The notes under the pieces are model-generated. The model worked only from the letters and a program-made list of their open reading frames with translations. It was not told where the DNA came from and searched no databases. From positions 1 through 64,000 of IMG/VR virus record IMGVR_UViG_3300012928_000001: DNA of 64,000 bases; one strand, written 5' to 3'. The stretch's first letter is position 1; each line of letters starts with the position of its first letter. Source of the DNA: a virus. The position numbers and the translations under genes are program-made. Below, piece after piece: positions 1-45,782 of the stretch.

Positions 1-18
1 CACCGAGAACACCCCATC

Positions 19-348
19 ATGAGCCTCAACGACGACAACTTCACCCCCCGCTACTTGCTGCGCATCGCCTTCACGGCCGTGTGCATCCTCGGCCTGATCG
101 GCCTCACCACCGCAGCGTTCGGCTCATGTCGCGTCGTCGACACGGCCGTGCAGCGCAAGGTCTTTGAGAACTCGCATCAGTACCAAGAGAGCGCCAACGA
201 ACAGGTCCGCTTGCTCGAAGCGAGTCTCATCGAGATCGACGCCCAACTCTCCAACCCCAACCTGAGCGAGGACACTCGAACCTCGCTCTCGATCCAACGC
301 TCAACCGTCAACGCTCAACTACAGGCCGCCAAGGCCAAGACCCGATGA
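19..348 (+). CDS. Membrane-anchored coiled-coil protein (possible inner-membrane spanin)
   Basis: 109 residues. Residues 14-33 form one hydrophobic segment. The remaining ~70 residues are rich in Glu, Gln and Leu with heptad-like spacing and read as a coiled coil. Its stop overlaps the start of the following lipoprotein gene by 4 bases (ATGA). A membrane helix plus coiled coil followed directly by an outer-membrane-type lipoprotein is the layout of i-spanin/o-spanin lysis pairs. That role is inferred from shape and context only; no family signature is visible. Confidence 0.75.
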   Translation: MSLNDDNFTPRYLLRIAFTAVCILGLIGLTTAAFGSCRVVDTAVQRKVFENSHQYQESANEQVRLLEASLIEIDAQLSNPNLSEDTRTSLSIQRSTVNAQLQAAKAKTR

Positions 349-929
349 GAACGTCCATGCACCGCAAGCCCACCTACACCCTCGCCGCCGTCGCCCTGAC
401 CACGGCTTTCGCCTCCATCCTCGCCTGCGATCCCAGCCCCAGCGCCGAGCAGGCCGACCGCAAGGCCGTCGCCAACCAGCAGGCCCAGTACGCCAAGGGT
501 CAACCCGTCCCCGCCTTCGACTGGTCCCTCGAACGCGAGCTCGTGATCCAGCTGTACAACGCCCGCAACCGCAAGGTCGCCACGCACAGCGTGTGGCGCA
601 GCGACACCGGCGTCATCGAGGGCGACTGCCCCAGCATCGGCTACGGCATCCCCTACGACACGAGCCTCACCAACCCGCTCGCGCCCTCGGTCCACGGGGG
701 AGCGAGCGCGCCCGCGGCCGTTGCCCTCGGGCAGGCCGAGCCCAACGGCGTGTTCGCGTCGACGAACACCTCCGCGACCTTCGTCACCTGCGCGGGTCCG
801 GGAGGCACCATCGCCCCGGTCTACGTCGAGTCGAAGGTCACGGTCTACCCGGGCCCCGTCTCGATCGACCACGACACCAACCGCGTCACCCCGGTCGGCC
901 CCTCGGCGGTCTCGATCTCGCTGGACTGA
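345..929 (+). CDS. Lipoprotein of unknown function (possible outer-membrane spanin partner)
   Basis: 194 residues. The N-terminus is a lipoprotein signal: basic MRTSMHRK, a hydrophobic stretch, then ILAC with Cys28 as the likely lipidated residue. The mature part starts with a charged Gln/Ala-rich stretch, then a beta-rich region with three further Cys (C28, one near residue 93, one near 148). No known domain recognised. It is longer than typical o-spanins, so the spanin idea rests mainly on the overlap with the preceding membrane coiled-coil gene. Confidence 0.8.
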   Translation: MRTSMHRKPTYTLAAVALTTAFASILACDPSPSAEQADRKAVANQQAQYAKGQPVPAFDWSLERELVIQLYNARNRKVATHSVWRSDTGVIEGDCPSIGYGIPYDTSLTNPLAPSVHGGASAPAAVALGQAEPNGVFASTNTSATFVTCAGPGGTIAPVYVESKVTVYPGPVSIDHDTNRVTPVGPSAVSISLD

Positions 930-19088: not shown

Positions 19089-19661
19089 ATGTCTAGCACC
19101 GACAAAGACCCCACTCACCGCACCATCTCGATCAAGGTCGACAACTACACCGCCACGCTCGGCGCCCTCACCCTGCTATTCGCCCTGGGCATCGCGGCCA
19201 TCCTCTTCGGGTGCCCTCGGCCGGAGCAGCCCAAGCCGGAGCCCGACACGACCGAGGCGAGCGACAGCGACGGCGACGGGGCCGACGAGGCCGCCACGGT
19301 CACGGAGAGCGGCGACACGGCGCCCGCCGAGCGCCCGGACCCCAGCATCCCCCAGGGGCAGCTGTGGGGCCCGTGCTTCCCTGACGCGAGCTGTGAGCAG
19401 CCGGCCGGGCTCACCCTGACCTGCGCCGCGACCATCGACGAAGACGGGGTGACGGGGGCCATCTGCGCGCCCATGCTCGACGAGAGCATCACGTGCGCCG
19501 ATCCCTTCCTGACCTTCGGCCAGCCCGAGACCATCGAGGTGATCGAGCAACGGGGCCATTGCATGATCAAGAGCCCGTGTCCCTGGGAGGGGATGATCAT
19601 CGGCACGGGCTCCGTGTGCGTCTGGCCCTGGGCTCTCGACCGAGCCCTCGCGTTGCTGTGA
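19089..19661 (+). CDS. Membrane-anchored Cys-rich extracytoplasmic protein
   Basis: 190 residues. Hydrophobic segment ~23-41 ends in LFGC, which could be a lipidation Cys or just a membrane anchor. Then a Pro/Glu/Asp/Thr-rich linker (~43-85) and a ~100-residue domain with eight Cys, suggesting disulfides outside the cytoplasm. Not recognised; the linker composition resembles Myxococcota surface lipoproteins. Confidence 0.8.
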   Translation: MSSTDKDPTHRTISIKVDNYTATLGALTLLFALGIAAILFGCPRPEQPKPEPDTTEASDSDGDGADEAATVTESGDTAPAERPDPSIPQGQLWGPCFPDASCEQPAGLTLTCAATIDEDGVTGAICAPMLDESITCADPFLTFGQPETIEVIEQRGHCMIKSPCPWEGMIIGTGSVCVWPWALDRALALL

Positions 19662-35231: not shown

Positions 35232-36014
35232 ATGCTGATTCACCCAAAACTGATCATACCCCTCCTGATAGCTAGCCTCGCGGGCTGTGTCATCGACGAT
35301 GGCACGACGCCTTGCGAGGAATCGGCCGACGAAGACGGGGGCGACGAGAACGGCGAAGAGGGAGCGACGTGCGAGGCTCTGATCATGCCCGAGTACACCC
35401 GTAACGGGTACATGTACTGCGGGCAATCGGAGTCTCTCGGCGAGCACCTTCCCGATGGCACGGTCACGGCCTACGGCGTGACCGACTACGTCTTCGAGAC
35501 GAGCACGCACACCCAGACGATGCTCTGGGATTACGTGGATCTCAACTGGCAATCGCCAGACCCGTGGTCGGCCGAGTACAACGCCTATGTGCAGTTGCCG
35601 GGCGTCGTCTCGCACACCGTGCTCGGGCAAGAGTACATGGCCTTCATGTCGCGCGGTTGCTGCCCGCAACGCGTGATCGAAGGTTGGTACGGCGACCCGC
35701 TGCCCAACGCCGCGTGCAGCGGCGGGCACCAACTCAACGACACGCCGATGGCGTGGTGCCTCGACCTGCTCGACGGCACCGACTCGGGTGCGTGCGTGTA
35801 CCCGTGCGACGACGATCTCGACTGCCCCAACCCCGCGCAAGAGTTCTGCGACACGACCGTCCAGGACTTCTACGGCACCGCCGCGGGCGTGTGTCGCTAC
35901 GATGCGACGTGGCAGGTTCCCACGTCGCTGGAGATGATCGGCGACCCGATGCCCCCGCCCCCGCCCTCGCCCGAGGGCCAGCCTTCCACCCACACCCCCA
36001 ACGTCAACCGCTGA
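35232..36014 (+). CDS. Surface lipoprotein with acidic linker
   Basis: 260 residues. Clean lipoprotein signal MLIHPKLIIPLLIASLAGC (Cys19). An Asp/Glu/Gly-rich linker (~25-45) is followed by a ~190-residue domain with about ten Cys, including CVYPCDDDLDC and CDTTV; the CDxDxDC style is typical of Myxococcota secreted proteins. The tail is Pro-rich. Domain unknown. The next gene encodes a second lipoprotein with a related RGCC/DVGCC motif, so the two may be distant relatives or partners. Confidence 0.85.
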   Translation: MLIHPKLIIPLLIASLAGCVIDDGTTPCEESADEDGGDENGEEGATCEALIMPEYTRNGYMYCGQSESLGEHLPDGTVTAYGVTDYVFETSTHTQTMLWDYVDLNWQSPDPWSAEYNAYVQLPGVVSHTVLGQEYMAFMSRGCCPQRVIEGWYGDPLPNAACSGGHQLNDTPMAWCLDLLDGTDSGACVYPCDDDLDCPNPAQEFCDTTVQDFYGTAAGVCRYDATWQVPTSLEMIGDPMPPPPPSPEGQPSTHTPNVNR

Positions 36015-38363: not shown

Positions 38364-39098
38364 ATGCGCTACGTAGGCGGCAAGACTCGGATCGCAAAAG
38401 AGCTCACCCCGTTCATCCTCGCGGCGGCCAAGAAAGCTGGCACATCGACGATCATCGAGCCCTTTTGCGGGGGCCTGGGCATGACGTGCGCACTCGTGAA
38501 AGCGTCGCCGTTCGTTCGCGTCGAGGCCAGTGATTACGCGCCCGGACTCATCACGCTCTATCGCAGCATCCGCGCCGGATGGAAGCCGCCCACCGATCTA
38601 GACAAAGCGCAGTGGGCGGAGCTCAAAAAGCGCGCGGGCGAAGATCACCGCCTAGTTGCATTCGCGGGGTTCGGGTGCAGCTTCAATGGGATCTACTTTT
38701 GCGGGTACGGGACCGAAAAGTTCCCCGGACAGGCCGCGCGAGGGCTCCGCAAAAAGCTCGACATCTGCACGCCCAAGCGGGTCACCCTAGAGTCCCGCAG
38801 CTATGCGGACATCGAGGTCACCGGCCCGTGTGTGATCTACTGCGATCCGCCCTATCGTGGCTGTGACCGCGACTCCTATCGCGCCCTGCACGGCACCCCA
38901 CACGAGCGATTCGACAGCGACGCGTTTTGGGAGTGGGCTCGCGTGTGCGCGGACAAGGGCGCGCATGTGCTCGTGAGCGAGTACGTAGGCCCGGACTGGG
39001 CGCGCGTACTGTGGCAGCGCGAGATCGTCTCCATGACCGGGAATCACAACGGTAAGGGCGACAAGGCAACCGAGAGGTTGTTTTACGTCGCGCCTTGA
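38364..39098 (+). CDS. Dam-type N6-adenine DNA methyltransferase
   Basis: 244 residues. Class alpha/Dam order: N-terminal YVGGKTRI, SAM-binding EPFCGGLGM (32-40), a helical specificity region, catalytic CDPPYRG (160-166, DPPY motif IV), and a final strand LFYVAP. It transfers a methyl group from SAM to adenine N6; the site recognised cannot be read from sequence. Phage Dam enzymes usually protect against restriction. Its transcript must read through, or start after, the terminator at 38307. Confidence 0.93.
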   Translation: MRYVGGKTRIAKELTPFILAAAKKAGTSTIIEPFCGGLGMTCALVKASPFVRVEASDYAPGLITLYRSIRAGWKPPTDLDKAQWAELKKRAGEDHRLVAFAGFGCSFNGIYFCGYGTEKFPGQAARGLRKKLDICTPKRVTLESRSYADIEVTGPCVIYCDPPYRGCDRDSYRALHGTPHERFDSDAFWEWARVCADKGAHVLVSEYVGPDWARVLWQREIVSMTGNHNGKGDKATERLFYVAP

Positions 39099-39115
39099 TT
39101 CATGCTGGTCCCACC

Positions 39116-40639
39116 ATGGGCGTACCAAAAGAGCAATTCGATGAATGGGTAGAGATCCCCTGGACGTTTCCCGAGGACACCATGTGTTGGGACGGCGACC
39201 GAGGTGGGACGGCGCCGCTACTCCTCGAAGACTATCAGCGGCAGTTCATGGACTGTCCGGCGAAGTATCGGGGTGTGAACAAATCGCGCCAGGTGGGGTA
39301 CTCATTCGTGTTCGCGGTCGAGTCGCTCACTCGGGCGATCATGGACCCCGGCCACACGTCGATGTTTGTCAGCTACAACCTCGACGACGCGCGAGAGAAG
39401 ATCACGATCATCCACAAGCTGCTCGATCTCAGCCCGGCGCTGCACGGTCTCGCTGATTTCGACGCGCTGAAAAATGACGTGAAAGTGAAGCCCAAGTGGG
39501 CGCGCAAGTGGTCGCTGATTCGGTCCCTCCCGTGCAGGCCCGTGCGAGGAAAGACCAAGGCTGATCTGTACCTCGACGAGATCGCCCACTATCAGGACGC
39601 AGAGCAGGTCTATCTCGGCAGCGCGCCCGCGACCGTGCGCTCCCTGACCGGTGGACAGATCACCGTTGCCAGTACCCCGAACGGGCGTGCTGGCATTTTC
39701 TGGGAGTGCATCGAGGGCCCGCGCTCGCGCCCGTACTGGAAGCAAAACGTCCCGTGGTGGGAGAGCCGGTATCTGTGCAGCGATGTCGAGCTCGCGCGCC
39801 GCGAGGCCGGGCTCATGACCACGGACGCGCGCATCTCAAAGTTCGCGCTGCCCAACCTCGTCGAGCTCTACGATGGCATGGCGCTGATCGACTTCCAGCA
39901 GGAATTCGAATGCGATTTTGTCGACGATGGATCGTCATACTTCCCGATGGACCTTCTCAACAAGAACGTCTGTCGGGATCGCCGATTGTGCCGAGATTTT
40001 GATGAGGTCTTGGAGAAGCGCCACCCCAAGGGCCAGCTTTTCGCCGGGGTCGACATCGGGCGATTCAAGGACACCACCGAAGTGGTGATTCTCGATCGGT
40101 GGCCTACGGAAAGCGCGTCAACGGGGTACGCCTATAGCCCGATGATGGTCATGACCATGGACCGCGTGAACACTCAGGAGCAAGGCGACCGGCTAGAGAC
40201 GCTCTTGAAGCATCCTGCGATTGAGCGGCTCTGGATCGACACTACTGGCATTGGTCTCGCCATCGGCGAGCGCCTGCGCAACGCCTTCCCTCGCAAGGTT
40301 GTGGGCGTCATGTTCACGACCCCGAGTAAAGAGCTCATGTGCGTGCTAGCTCGGCGCTCGTTCGAAAGGCTACTCGTCGACTTGCCTGATCCCGAGCACG
40401 AGGACAGCCGCGCCGGCCGTGAGGCCCGACTGTTCATCGATCACATCCACTCGATCAAGCGCCACGCGGGGACGGGCCGGCACGCTCGCTATGAGGCCGA
40501 GAGCACGACACACCACGGCGATCAGTTCTGGGCCTTTGCGCTCGTCATGCTGTGCGCCCATGAGGACCTGAAACCGCGACGCGATACGGCAACCCTGCGA
40601 GACGTTATCGACGTTTCGCTAGAGGCGAGTTTGGTATGA
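39116..40639 (+). CDS. terL: Large terminase (DNA packaging ATPase-nuclease)
   Basis: 507 residues from ATG 39116. An in-frame TTG at 39095 overlaps the previous stop (TTGA) and would add seven residues. The ATPase half has KSRQVGYS (56-63), a displaced Walker A like that of phage lambda gpA in which the Lys leads the motif. Walker B is ADLYLDE (148-154). The nuclease half begins at FAGVDIGRFKDTT, with Asp312 as likely metal ligand, and has LWIDTTGIG with a second Asp. It cuts and pumps DNA into the prohead through the portal at 47.8 kb. Confidence 0.94.
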   Translation: MGVPKEQFDEWVEIPWTFPEDTMCWDGDRGGTAPLLLEDYQRQFMDCPAKYRGVNKSRQVGYSFVFAVESLTRAIMDPGHTSMFVSYNLDDAREKITIIHKLLDLSPALHGLADFDALKNDVKVKPKWARKWSLIRSLPCRPVRGKTKADLYLDEIAHYQDAEQVYLGSAPATVRSLTGGQITVASTPNGRAGIFWECIEGPRSRPYWKQNVPWWESRYLCSDVELARREAGLMTTDARISKFALPNLVELYDGMALIDFQQEFECDFVDDGSSYFPMDLLNKNVCRDRRLCRDFDEVLEKRHPKGQLFAGVDIGRFKDTTEVVILDRWPTESASTGYAYSPMMVMTMDRVNTQEQGDRLETLLKHPAIERLWIDTTGIGLAIGERLRNAFPRKVVGVMFTTPSKELMCVLARRSFERLLVDLPDPEHEDSRAGREARLFIDHIHSIKRHAGTGRHARYEAESTTHHGDQFWAFALVMLCAHEDLKPRRDTATLRDVIDVSLEASLV

Positions 40640-41214: not shown

Positions 41215-42474
41215 GTGGCAACGCTCACCGATGCTGATTGGTACACGCTCACCGGGGATACGTATGTCCAAAACACGGCGCAGCTTTTTGCCGCTAGTTT
41301 CGAGGACACGATCACTCGTGCGCTCGCAGTCTTTGGCCCACGCACTGGACCGTTTGGCGCCGAGCTGGACAACGCGCAGCTTTACGGGATCTTGCAGACG
41401 CAGGGGATCACGTTCACGTCCGCGCAAGTGATCGACTCGGTCAACGTGCTTTTGCAGCGCGGGATCTTCTACCGCACGCTCGGCCCGAACCGTGCCGAGT
41501 ACATCAAAGCCGAGAATCAGGTGCCGCCTTTTTCCGAGGGTGGTGCTGGCTTTGGCGACGCGGCCACGAGCACGGCCGTCCCGGTGATCCGCCGCGGCCC
41601 TCAGGGGGAGCCCGGGCTGCAAGGCCCCGCCGGCCCCCAGGGGCCGCGAGGAATTCAGGGCACGACCGGCGTCCAGGGTCCCCAGGGAGCCACAGGCCCG
41701 GCCGGTGCCATGGGACCCCCAGGGCCCCAGGGCGACCCAGGGCCCGCGCTCGTGCCCGAGTCGTTCGCGTGGGCGTCGACGCAGCTCATCACCGCGGTCG
41801 CCAACACCTTCTACCTCATCTTCCCGGGGGCGCCCTCGGGCATGTTGACGCTTCGGCTCCCGGTCACGCCCCCGAACGGGACGCGGATCGGCCTGAGTCT
41901 CCCGACGAGCTCGCTCGCGGCGGCGGGGCAGCCCCTGACCTTGCTCGGCGGCGGCGCGACCATCTCGCTCCCGGTGGCCAATGAAGCCATGACTGTCCTC
42001 CTACAGCCAACCGATCCGCTGCTCCGCCCCGGCTTCGGATTGATCTTGACCTACTCGCAGAATGGCAATAGGTGGGTTACGTCTACCTGGTTTCAGGATG
42101 AGATCAATTTGCCGATTGGGCCTGATCGGCGAAACTCGTTTACGTCGACCGGAACTTACATCGATCTCGAAACACTCGGTACGGTTGCCGAAGGCGAAGC
42201 GTTCACATTCGAGGGGTCGGTGTCCGCGAGCTATCAGACCGGAGCGGGCGCGCGCTTCGTGGACATCATCCAAGTTCGTGGCACTGCTCGGCGCAACATG
42301 GGTGCACCCGGAACAACCGTGACAAGCAACATGCTTCCGAGCGGCAACCTACCCGGCGGCGACGCGCGGATCTTCGTGGTCGCCGGACAGAACGACGTGC
42401 GTCTACAGGTTCGCACGACCACCGCGGGCCAGACGTTGATCGTCGCGTGGAATGGAATTTGGCGATCGCTGTGA
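41215..42474 (+). CDS. Collagen-repeat virion protein (probable tail fibre or head fibre)
   Basis: 419 residues from GTG 41215. N-terminal ~120 residues are helical, probably the attachment domain. Residues 128-177 are an unbroken Gly-x-y collagen-like run (~17 triplets). The rest is a beta-rich head with Thr/Gly/Leu-rich strands. Such layouts occur in phage fibres, where collagen repeats make trimeric stalks. Expressed from its own unit between packaging and zinc-ribbon genes. Confidence 0.82.
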
Positions 42475-43188: not shown

Positions 43189-43755
43189 ATGACCGCGCCT
43201 AACCTCGAACACATCGTGACGCCGTTGCGCCAGTTCGCCGTCCCGATTTCCGACCTGACCCCGGACCCGAAAAACGTCCGAATCCACAGCAAGCGCAACC
43301 GCGATGCGCTGCGCGTCAGCTTGACGAAATACGGGTTCATTGAGCCGATCATCGTCCAGCGGCAGGGCATGATCATCCGCGCGGGGAACTGTCGCACGAA
43401 GCTCGCGGGAGAGCTCGGATGGACCCACGTCCCCGCGCTCATCGTCGACCACAACGACGTCGAGGCGACGGCCTTCGCCATCACGCACAATCGCACAGGC
43501 GAGCTCGGCGAGTGGGATGAGAAGGCCCTCGCGCAACAGCTCGCGGAGCTGCAAGCGAGCTCGATCGAGCTGTTCACGACGACGGGTTTTGACGCGGCCG
43601 AGGTCGATAGGCTGCTCGGGACCCCGCTCGTGATTCCTGACGACCCCGTCGAAGAGCTGACCCCGCCGGACAGCTTCCCGGAGATCGACGGGACCGAGCC
43701 CACCGATCACCGCTGCCCCTCGTGCGGCTACGAATGGAACGGGAAGTCGAAGTGA
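43189..43755 (+). CDS. ParB-like N-terminal-domain protein with zinc ribbon
   Basis: 188 residues. Residues ~10-100 show the ParB/Srx order: PISDLTPDPKNVRIHSKRN, then SLTKYGFIEPIIVQ, and GNCRTKLAGELGWTHVPALIVD, which replaces the usual GxRR/GxHR loop. A helical linker follows, and the C-terminus is a zinc ribbon half (CPSCGYEWNG). ParB-like domains are often encoded beside or fused to phage DNA methyltransferases. Its 3' end overlaps the chorismate mutase gene, making it the first gene of the cassette. Role in modification or site selection is inferred from position. Confidence 0.87.
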   Translation: MTAPNLEHIVTPLRQFAVPISDLTPDPKNVRIHSKRNRDALRVSLTKYGFIEPIIVQRQGMIIRAGNCRTKLAGELGWTHVPALIVDHNDVEATAFAITHNRTGELGEWDEKALAQQLAELQASSIELFTTTGFDAAEVDRLLGTPLVIPDDPVEELTPPDSFPEIDGTEPTDHRCPSCGYEWNGKSK

Positions 43756-44006
43756 TCGAGCAGCTCCGCCGTCGGCTCGACTATACCGACCGCCTACTGG
43801 TCCGGCTGCTCTCGCAGCGGTCGGGTCTCGTGGCCAAGGTCCAGCGCGCCCGCGCAGCCGGGGGCGGGCCCTCGCGGGACCCTGAGCGTGAGGAGGTCGT
43901 GCGAGCCCGCGCCGAGCAGCTCGCCCGCGAGCTCGGGGGCTACCCGCCCGATGTTGTGCTCACGATCTTCGAGATTCTGTTCGCCAACGCGGAGCGGGCC
44001 CAATGA
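43752..44006 (+). CDS. aroQ: AroQ-type chorismate mutase
   Basis: 84 residues from GTG 43752 (GTGA overlap). Full single-domain AroQ length and pattern: LRRRLDYTDRLLVRLLSQR (helix 1), RDPEREEVV (helix 2 start), FEILFANAERAQ (helix 3). Aligned by eye to E. coli chorismate mutase, active-site Arg11, Arg28, Asp48, Arg51, Glu52 and Gln88 are kept as Arg6, Arg23, Asp43, Arg46, Glu47 and Gln84. Lys39 becomes Arg34. The reaction is chorismate to prephenate. The next-but-one gene encodes a homologue of CmoA, an enzyme that consumes prephenate. Confidence 0.88.
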   Translation: MIEQLRRRLDYTDRLLVRLLSQRSGLVAKVQRARAAGGGPSRDPEREEVVRARAEQLARELGGYPPDVVLTIFEILFANAERAQ

Positions 44007-45091
44007 AGCCGCCGTACTACGTGCCGACCATGGCTGTGGTCGAGGCCGCGCGGGGGACCAATGGCTACACCGCGGTCTCGACGTTCTCGGGCGCGGGCGG
44101 CAGCTGTCTCGGGCACACCCTCGCCGGCTTCGCTGTGCTGTGGGCGAATGAGTTCATTCCCGCTGCGCAAGATACCTACATGCGGAATCATCCTACCTCG
44201 CATCTCGATACCCGAGACGTGCGAGAGGTGCAGGGCGCCGACATCCTGAACGCGGTCGGAAAAGACATCGGGGAGATCGATCTTTTCGATGGCAGCCCGC
44301 CGTGCTCCGCGTTCTCGAATGCGGGGAGTCGGGGCCAGCAGTGGGGAAAGATCAAAGGCTACAGCGACACCAAACAGCGGGTTGATGATCTGCTCTTCGA
44401 GTTCGCGCGTCTCGTCGCGTTCACGCGCCCGCGGGTGTTCGTCGCTGAGAACGTTGGGGGGTTGCTCCGCGGTAAGGGGTTGGGACGGTTTCGGGAGCTC
44501 GTCAAGCGTCTGCCGGGGTACACGATCCGCGCTCAGACCATGGACGCGGTTTGGATGGGCGTCCCCCAACGCCGCGAGCGGGCGATCATCATCGGTGTTC
44601 GCAGTGATCTAGGAGTGCCGCCAGCATTCCCGAAGCCGCTGAAATACTACTACACGGCCGGAGACGCGCTCCCGTGGCTACGCGCTCCCGCGGGCACCCG
44701 CGTTGCGCGTCTGGGCGAGATCACCGATCGCGTCCCTCTAGCCAAGAGCCGGCGCGAGGGCAAAAAGTACAACACCTACGAAGTGCTCCCACATAGGCCC
44801 TGTCCCACCGTCACCGTGGCGAGCGATGGCAATGACCTGTTTATCATCGGTCCGACTGAGCAGGAAGCCAATGCTGGCATCATCGCGCCCGCGGACCCGC
44901 GGAAGATCAATATCTCCGAGCTCCGCCGCCTGTGTGGCTTTCCTCCAGACTTCCAGCCTACTGGGTCGTTCTCGAAGCAATATGAGCGACTCGGCCGCGC
45001 TGTTCCGCCACCCATGATGTGCGCCGTAGCCTCGACGATCCGCGATGCTGTGCTACGAAAAGCAGACCATGGGCAGCAACAGCAGCATTGA
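44003..45091 (+). CDS. C5-cytosine DNA methyltransferase, candidate carboxymethyltransferase
   Basis: 362 residues. Motifs in order: I TFSGAGGSCLGH (27-38), II WANEF, IV GSPPCSAFS with nucleophile Cys101, VI ENV (149-151), VIII QRRERAIIIG (189-198), a variable target-recognition region (~200-300), IX RRLCGFP, X ERLGRAVPPPM. The motif X Asn of GNxVPP, which lies by the methyl donor, is Arg332 here. A basic residue there could hold the extra carboxylate of carboxy-SAM. Because the genes on each side are predicted to make carboxy-SAM, the product may be 5-carboxymethylcytosine. Ordinary 5-methylcytosine is the alternative. Confidence 0.92.
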   Translation: MKPPYYVPTMAVVEAARGTNGYTAVSTFSGAGGSCLGHTLAGFAVLWANEFIPAAQDTYMRNHPTSHLDTRDVREVQGADILNAVGKDIGEIDLFDGSPPCSAFSNAGSRGQQWGKIKGYSDTKQRVDDLLFEFARLVAFTRPRVFVAENVGGLLRGKGLGRFRELVKRLPGYTIRAQTMDAVWMGVPQRRERAIIIGVRSDLGVPPAFPKPLKYYYTAGDALPWLRAPAGTRVARLGEITDRVPLAKSRREGKKYNTYEVLPHRPCPTVTVASDGNDLFIIGPTEQEANAGIIAPADPRKINISELRRLCGFPPDFQPTGSFSKQYERLGRAVPPPMMCAVASTIRDAVLRKADHGQQQQH

Positions 45092-45782
45092 TCACACCCC
45101 CGAGGACCGCTGGGTCTTTGACGAGTCCGTCGCGGATTGCTTCGAGGACATGTTGTCCCGATCCATCCCACAACACGACGAGATGCGCCGACTCGTCGGC
45201 AACGTCGGCGGGGTCGGGGTGGCCGACGGGACCCTTGTCGTTGACTTGGGATGTAGCCTCGGTCAGGCGATTGTCGACGTGCGCCGAGTAGCTCTCTCGC
45301 GTGGCATCAATGCGGTGTATCATGGGCTGGAGACGAGCGCTCCGATGCTTGATCGTGCCAAAGCGCGATTCGACTCTGTCGATGTCTTTGTAACGAACGA
45401 AGATGTGCGGACATGGAACGGCGACAACTGTAGCGTGGTGCTGGCAGTGCTTACGCTACAGTTCATCCCGATCAACTACCGACAGCAAATCATCCGCAAC
45501 GTATTCGAGTCCCTGAACCCCGGTGGGCGCTTCGTGCTCGTCGAGAAAGTGCTGGGCGAAGGGGCGCAGGTCGATGATCTCATGGTCGCGCACTATCACC
45601 ACAACAAACTCCAACAGGGCTATTCGAGGCAAGCTGTACGAGCGAAAGCGGAGTCCCTCGAAGGTGTGTTGGTCCCGGTGACTGCTGGCATGAACGAATC
45701 GATGCTTCGCCGTGCGGGCTTCCGTGAGGTAGACTGCTTTTGGCGATGGATGAATTTCGCGGCATGGGTGGCGATCAAGTAG
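45045..45782 (+). CDS. cmoA: CmoA homologue (carboxy-SAM synthase)
   Basis: 245 residues, the length of bacterial CmoA (E. coli 247). Matches through the whole chain: WVFDESVADCFEDMLSRSIP (23-42), VVDLGCSLGQAIVDVRR (65-81, SAM-binding), TLQFIPINYRQQII (137-150), SLNPGGRFVLVEKV (156-169), HYHHNKLQQGYS (183-194), MNFAAWVAIK at the end. CmoA makes carboxy-SAM from SAM and prephenate. In bacteria CmoB then uses it on tRNA U34; no CmoB is in this window. By eye, the position of E. coli Arg199 is Ala here, with an Arg one helical turn earlier. ATG 45069 is an alternative start. Confidence 0.93.
   Translation: MLCYEKQTMGSNSSIDHTPEDRWVFDESVADCFEDMLSRSIPQHDEMRRLVGNVGGVGVADGTLVVDLGCSLGQAIVDVRRVALSRGINAVYHGLETSAPMLDRAKARFDSVDVFVTNEDVRTWNGDNCSVVLAVLTLQFIPINYRQQIIRNVFESLNPGGRFVLVEKVLGEGAQVDDLMVAHYHHNKLQQGYSRQAVRAKAESLEGVLVPVTAGMNESMLRRAGFREVDCFWRWMNFAAWVAIK

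Follow-up and report, generated by a model that had tools for sequence, protein, structure and literature searches.

A chorismate mutase gene in a phage CmoA-CmoX operon: a predicted prephenate supply for the carboxymethylation of DNA cytosines

The window analysed here comprises the first 64,000 nucleotides of the virus record IMGVR_UViG_3300012928_000001, a contig of 105,163 bp. As the first 123 bases of this contig are identical to its last 123, the record represents a phage genome that is complete and closed, with a length of 105,040 bp. A run of four overlapping genes on the plus strand (43189-45782) encodes, in this order, a ParB_N-domain protein, a chorismate mutase (CM), a C5-cytosine transferase (CmoX) and a homologue of CmoA (Table 1). 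The ParB and CM genes have the letters GTGA in common at position 43752, the CM and CmoX genes share ATGA at position 44003, and the last 47 bp of cmoX are shared with cmoA, or the last 23 bp if translation of cmoA starts at the internal ATG. These overlaps suggest that the genes of the operon are translationally coupled. An earlier, sequence-only reading had described three overlapping genes at 43752-45782. All three are genuine and correctly placed, and their overlaps were confirmed; matches to PF01817, PF00145, phrog_4752 and PDB entry 4gek show that none of them is a chance frame. The same reading overlooked the ParB_N gene with which the coupled run begins. ParBc proteins are known companions of CmoX (PMC12783734), and a ParB-homologous family adjoins CmoX/CmoA in 167 of 204 loci.

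Table 1. Coordinates of the operon and its diagnostic residues, and arrangement of the seven CM-bearing cassettes (window coordinates unless a record or locus is named).
Feature	Position or locus	Strand	Remarks
Direct terminal repeat	window 1-123 and record 105041-105163		123 bp
ParB_N-domain protein	43189..43755	+	first gene of the coupled run; PF02195, E 9e-7
Chorismate mutase, AroQ class, monofunctional	43752..44006	+	84 aa; PF01817; GTG start on the ParB stop
CmoX, predicted DNA cytosine C5-carboxymethyltransferase	44003..45091	+	362 aa; closest PDB entry by sequence and fold 8yf3; SPPC, ENV, motif-X Arg
Catalytic Cys101 codon (SPPC motif)	44303..44305	+	equivalent to SpCmoX Cys98; alignment to 8yf3
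Arg332 codon, replacing the usual motif-X Asn	44996..44998	+	equivalent to SpCmoX Arg350; alignment to 8yf3, ERLGRAVPP vs ERVGRMVPP
CmoA, predicted carboxy-SAM synthase	45045..45782 (or from ATG 45069)	+	245 aa; 4gek, phrog_4752
ParB-CM-CmoX-CmoA	window, L052, L197
ParB-CM-CmoX-CmoY-CmoA	L080		CM carrier with CmoY
CM-CmoX-CmoA	L217
CmoX-CmoA-CM	L153		CM overlapping the cmoA stop
CmoX-CmoA, CM downstream	L062		distance 0.8 kb

The transferase belongs to the C5-cytosine methyltransferase family (PF00145, E 2e-45). Its closest PDB chain by sequence is 8yf3 (E 4e-51), which is also the best fold match (E 3e-28) of its AlphaFold model (mean pLDDT 81.7). The catalytic SPPC motif is formed by residues S98-P99-P100-C101. 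Motif X of C5 methyltransferases usually reads G-N-x-V, and in the phage protein it reads G-R-A-V. The chain 8yf3 is the CmoX of Synechococcus phage S-B43 (SpCmoX), in which the equivalent arginine, Arg350, contacts the carboxylate of carboxy-SAM (Cx-SAM); the enzyme takes only this cofactor, and its R350N variant is dead with both Cx-SAM and SAM (PMC12783734). Judged by its best PDB match in both sequence and predicted fold, and by Arg332, the phage transferase is a CmoX. In the engineered carboxymethyltransferase M.MpeI N374K, as cited in PMC12783734, a basic residue in place of the motif-X Asn likewise permits the use of Cx-SAM; from what is given there, it differs from the present protein in being an engineered CpG enzyme rather than a natural one and in having no supply genes. 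No hint of the motif targeted by the phage CmoX came from the dinucleotide bias of the genome.

The PF00145 fold is common to all C5 methyltransferases and plain enzymes of this type are found in many phages, as would suit an ordinary, SAM-using 5-methylcytosine methyltransferase that merely has CmoA as an unrelated passenger. This reading is nevertheless very improbable in view of the motif-X arginine, the cofactor requirement of the Arg-bearing SpCmoX and its R350N variant, and the distribution of cmoA, which cleanly separates the Arg-type relatives from the others. Among 134 relatives that were retrieved with CmoX queries alone and are readable at the motif-X column, a nearby cmoA was present for 124 of 129 Arg-type proteins and for none of the five non-Arg proteins (four Asn, one Leu; Fisher p 8e-7, a value that serves only as a guide as the records are related to each other). 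Of the five Arg-type records without cmoA, three (L036-L038) belong to a single phage type, and two are contigs that are short or cut near the gene. In L036, L037 and L038, no cmoA was found in the stretch examined and a second C5-methyltransferase-like frame is situated approximately 3 kb downstream; CmoX of these phages may depend on host Cx-SAM or on a distant cmoA.

CmoA of the window is a full-length homologue of the E. coli enzyme (EcCmoA, 4gek; E 2e-34, residues 22-245 aligned) and is 34% identical to it, and 28% identical to the proven CmoA of phage S-B43 (SpCmoA). R199 of EcCmoA, a residue in contact with the cofactor carboxylate, aligns with Ala in the phage protein and with Glu in SpCmoA; this position was dropped as a diagnostic residue, since a proven enzyme has no Arg there. 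The best-matching phage family, phrog_4752 (E 4e-67), is annotated as "tRNA methyltransferase," and in the bacterial pathway to tRNA cmo5U, CmoB spends the Cx-SAM that CmoA makes from prephenate. The phage CmoA might serve tRNA cmo5U modification through a host CmoB, the C5 transferase being a separate matter. We regard this as hardly credible: no match to the CmoB family (PF08003) exists anywhere in the phage record, in agreement with the sequence-only reading, cmoA overlaps an Arg-type cmoX within one operon, and a phage CmoA without CmoB has been proven to serve DNA in S-B43 (PMC12783734). In contrast to the bacterial pathway, the predicted acceptor here is DNA cytosine, reached via CmoX.

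The core of this pathway has already been published. In a report of December 2025 in Nature Communications, phage CmoA and CmoX were found to make natural 5-carboxymethylcytosine (5cxmC), often amidated by a third protein, CmoY, and 5,615 candidate CmoX sequences were reported (PMC12783734). The central idea of the sequence-only reading, namely that the carboxymethyl group is transferred from Cx-SAM to cytosine, was therefore right, and it is strongly supported by the homology to a proven CmoX, the replacement of Asn by Arg in motif X and the linkage of cmoA. Its remark that no natural source of 5cxmC was known did not hold, as S-B43 is such a source and the pathway is not new. The present operon resembles that of S-B43 in its CmoA homologue, in a CmoX with SPPC and motif-X Arg, in the adjacency of the genes in a phage genome and in the lack of CmoB. 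It differs in that CM is part of the operon, CmoY is absent and ParB is coupled, and its proteins are only 25-40% identical to those of S-B43. A second comparison is provided by Streptomyces phage TurkishDelight (NC_073473), whose gp121-125 are arranged as ParB, ParB, CmoX, an asparagine synthetase-like protein and CmoA. Its CmoX is 43% identical to that of the window, but TurkishDelight possesses a CmoY-type ligase and no CM, as judged by a PF01817 search of the whole record. What is new relative to the published system is the presence of CM in the cassette, with a proposed role in prephenate supply, in a CM-equipped and CmoY-less form of the CmoA-CmoX system.

The CM is a bare AroQ domain without a regulatory domain (PF01817, E 8e-14; 52 bits at a cut-off of 27). 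Its AlphaFold model (pLDDT 93.8) matches the chorismate mutases 2d8d (TM 0.88) and 1ecm (TM 0.89). Residues R6, R23, R34, D43, R46, E47 and Q84 align with R11, R28, K39, D48, R51, E52 and Q88 of EcCM, and all seven active-site positions are suitably filled; the exchange of K39 for Arg is also present in the enzyme of M. tuberculosis. The protein thus passes family, fold and active-site checks, and the conversion of chorismate to prephenate is its predicted activity.

A PF01817 profile search was carried out on 202 virus records with CmoX/CmoA (4.37 Mb, many of the records being fragments) and gave matches in seven of them. All seven lie inside the cassette or within 1 kb of cmoX/cmoA, a zone covering 17.6% of the sequence searched (p about 5e-6), and no match was obtained in the remaining ~3.6 Mb. 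In five of the seven, the CM gene immediately precedes cmoX; in the other two it follows cmoA, overlapping its end in one case and lying 0.8 kb downstream in the other. This recurrent linkage supports the predicted role of CM in prephenate supply. The profile detected no CM in 23 terminase-related phages used as a control (1.09 Mb); a PolA-based control group yielded no relatives, and another terminase-based control recovered only the phage of origin. Single-sequence searches of viral contigs (queries P0001 and the CM of L153) added none to those already found. The CM alignment is too variable for scanning, so that the Pfam profile was required. Between the CM of the window and those of the remaining six phages, identity reaches only 21-34%, and the CM of L197 is without the active-site Asp. 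In cultured phages, no CM was found by tblastn, which is insensitive for such a short, variable domain; a single match was rejected as a Salmonella chromosome contig.

On the CmoX tree, the CM label needs six changes for six rows, the same as shuffled labels, and L051, whose CmoX is 84% identical to that of L052, shows no PF01817 match. Given this scatter and the pair L051/L052, the sequences indicate more than one gain or loss of CM, each at the CmoX/CmoA cassette. Such a constant location is expected if CM serves the CmoA/CmoX pathway. As 195 of the 202 records, many of them fragmentary, show no CM, the gene is optional in CmoX phages. It could also have a purpose apart from CmoA, such as draining host chorismate, reshaping the supply of aromatic amino acids, or another activity of the AroQ fold, for example that of an isochorismate-pyruvate lyase. 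The fold does include PchB lyases, and a survey of the rumen virome places CM among the amino-acid auxiliary genes (PMC10465536). However, the folds and sequences closest to the phage protein are those of true chorismate mutases, PchB lyases ranking lower among the fold matches, and every CM in the surveyed records lies beside cmoX/cmoA and none elsewhere, which makes a separate purpose unlikely.

Taken together, the operon very probably enables this phage to put an acidic carboxymethyl group on the cytosines of its own DNA, and we consider it likely that it represents a CM-equipped variant of the CmoA/CmoX system, in which CM feeds prephenate, CmoA makes Cx-SAM and CmoX makes 5cxmC. Many host chorismate mutases are under feedback inhibition. 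Going by what is known of the family, the phage enzyme, being devoid of a regulatory domain, should escape this control and would convert host chorismate to prephenate. CmoA would then combine prephenate and SAM to yield Cx-SAM with release of phenylpyruvate, and CmoX, gripping the carboxylate with Arg332, would pass the carboxymethyl group on to the cytosines of the phage DNA, at C5, both reactions being proven in homologues. The resulting 5cxmC would block restriction. Anti-restriction is the likely purpose of the modification, since carboxymethylation blocks HhaI in vitro (PMC12783734).

The final base need not be the 5cxmC that the sequence-only reading had proposed, even though the placement of a carboxymethyl group on cytosine is strongly supported. 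CmoY is a glycine ligase, and the DNA of S-B43 holds only the glycine amide and no free 5cxmC (PMC12783734); of the 204 loci, 68 have a linked CmoY-like gene. By analogy, 5cxmC could be an intermediate whose acid is capped by a phage or host enzyme that was not recognised here. Such capping would be compatible with the CM-equipped CmoA/CmoX pathway and would alter only the final base. It seems possible, though less likely than not, given that neither phmmer with two CmoY queries nor PF00733 gave a match in the closed genome and that many other cassettes consist of ParB-CmoX-CmoA only. Ten genes of the left arm were scanned with Pfam, and no further modification enzyme emerged. As no CmoY is detectable, free 5cxmC, or a further modification of another kind, is predicted for this phage, with the acid probably staying free unless capped in the manner described. 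The wider proposal that phages repeatedly added their own CM to the CmoX cassette, taking chorismate directly for the cofactor, and that the free acid is the final base in this CmoY-less phage, has in our estimation about an even chance of being correct.

The recurrence of CM inside the CmoX/CmoA operon bears on the prephenate supply of phages, a matter left open in the 2025 report, whose text does not mention chorismate mutase and names the availability of prephenate as needing study (PMC12783734). Among open-licence papers, no other account was found that ties CM to phage DNA modification. The question is now directly testable with three small proteins. In the rumen virome survey, DNMT1, asparagine synthase and chorismate mutase appear side by side as auxiliary metabolic genes (PMC10465536); by inference from the cassettes described here, these may in part be the CmoX, CmoY and CM of DNA-modification cassettes.

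Several further features of the genome and of related loci were observed. Very often, the ParB-CmoX-(CmoY)-CmoA cassette immediately precedes the terminase and portal genes (three clusters, with 66, 37 and 31 loci), a fixed place at the packaging module. The window carries a second DNA modification gene, coding for a D12-class adenine-N6 DNA methyltransferase (PF02086; 38364-39098), with the large terminase gene directly downstream (39095-40639). A protein with a collagen-like Gly-x-y stretch (41215-42474) is probably part of a tail fibre. DNA polymerase A combines a 3'-5' exonuclease with an N-terminal uracil-DNA-glycosylase domain in one frame of 898 aa (L144:12206-14902; record 96206-98902). 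A DUF2201 metallopeptidase/VWA protein and a nearby AAA_5 ATPase form a MoxR/VWA-like pair on the minus strand (L143:18694-19977 and L144:1119-2324; record 82694-83977 and 85119-86324). Several lipoproteins are predicted (window 345-929, 19089-19661 and 35232-36014); they have a lipobox-like Cys and tails that are acidic or rich in Pro, and in a high-GC phage they may hint at the host group.
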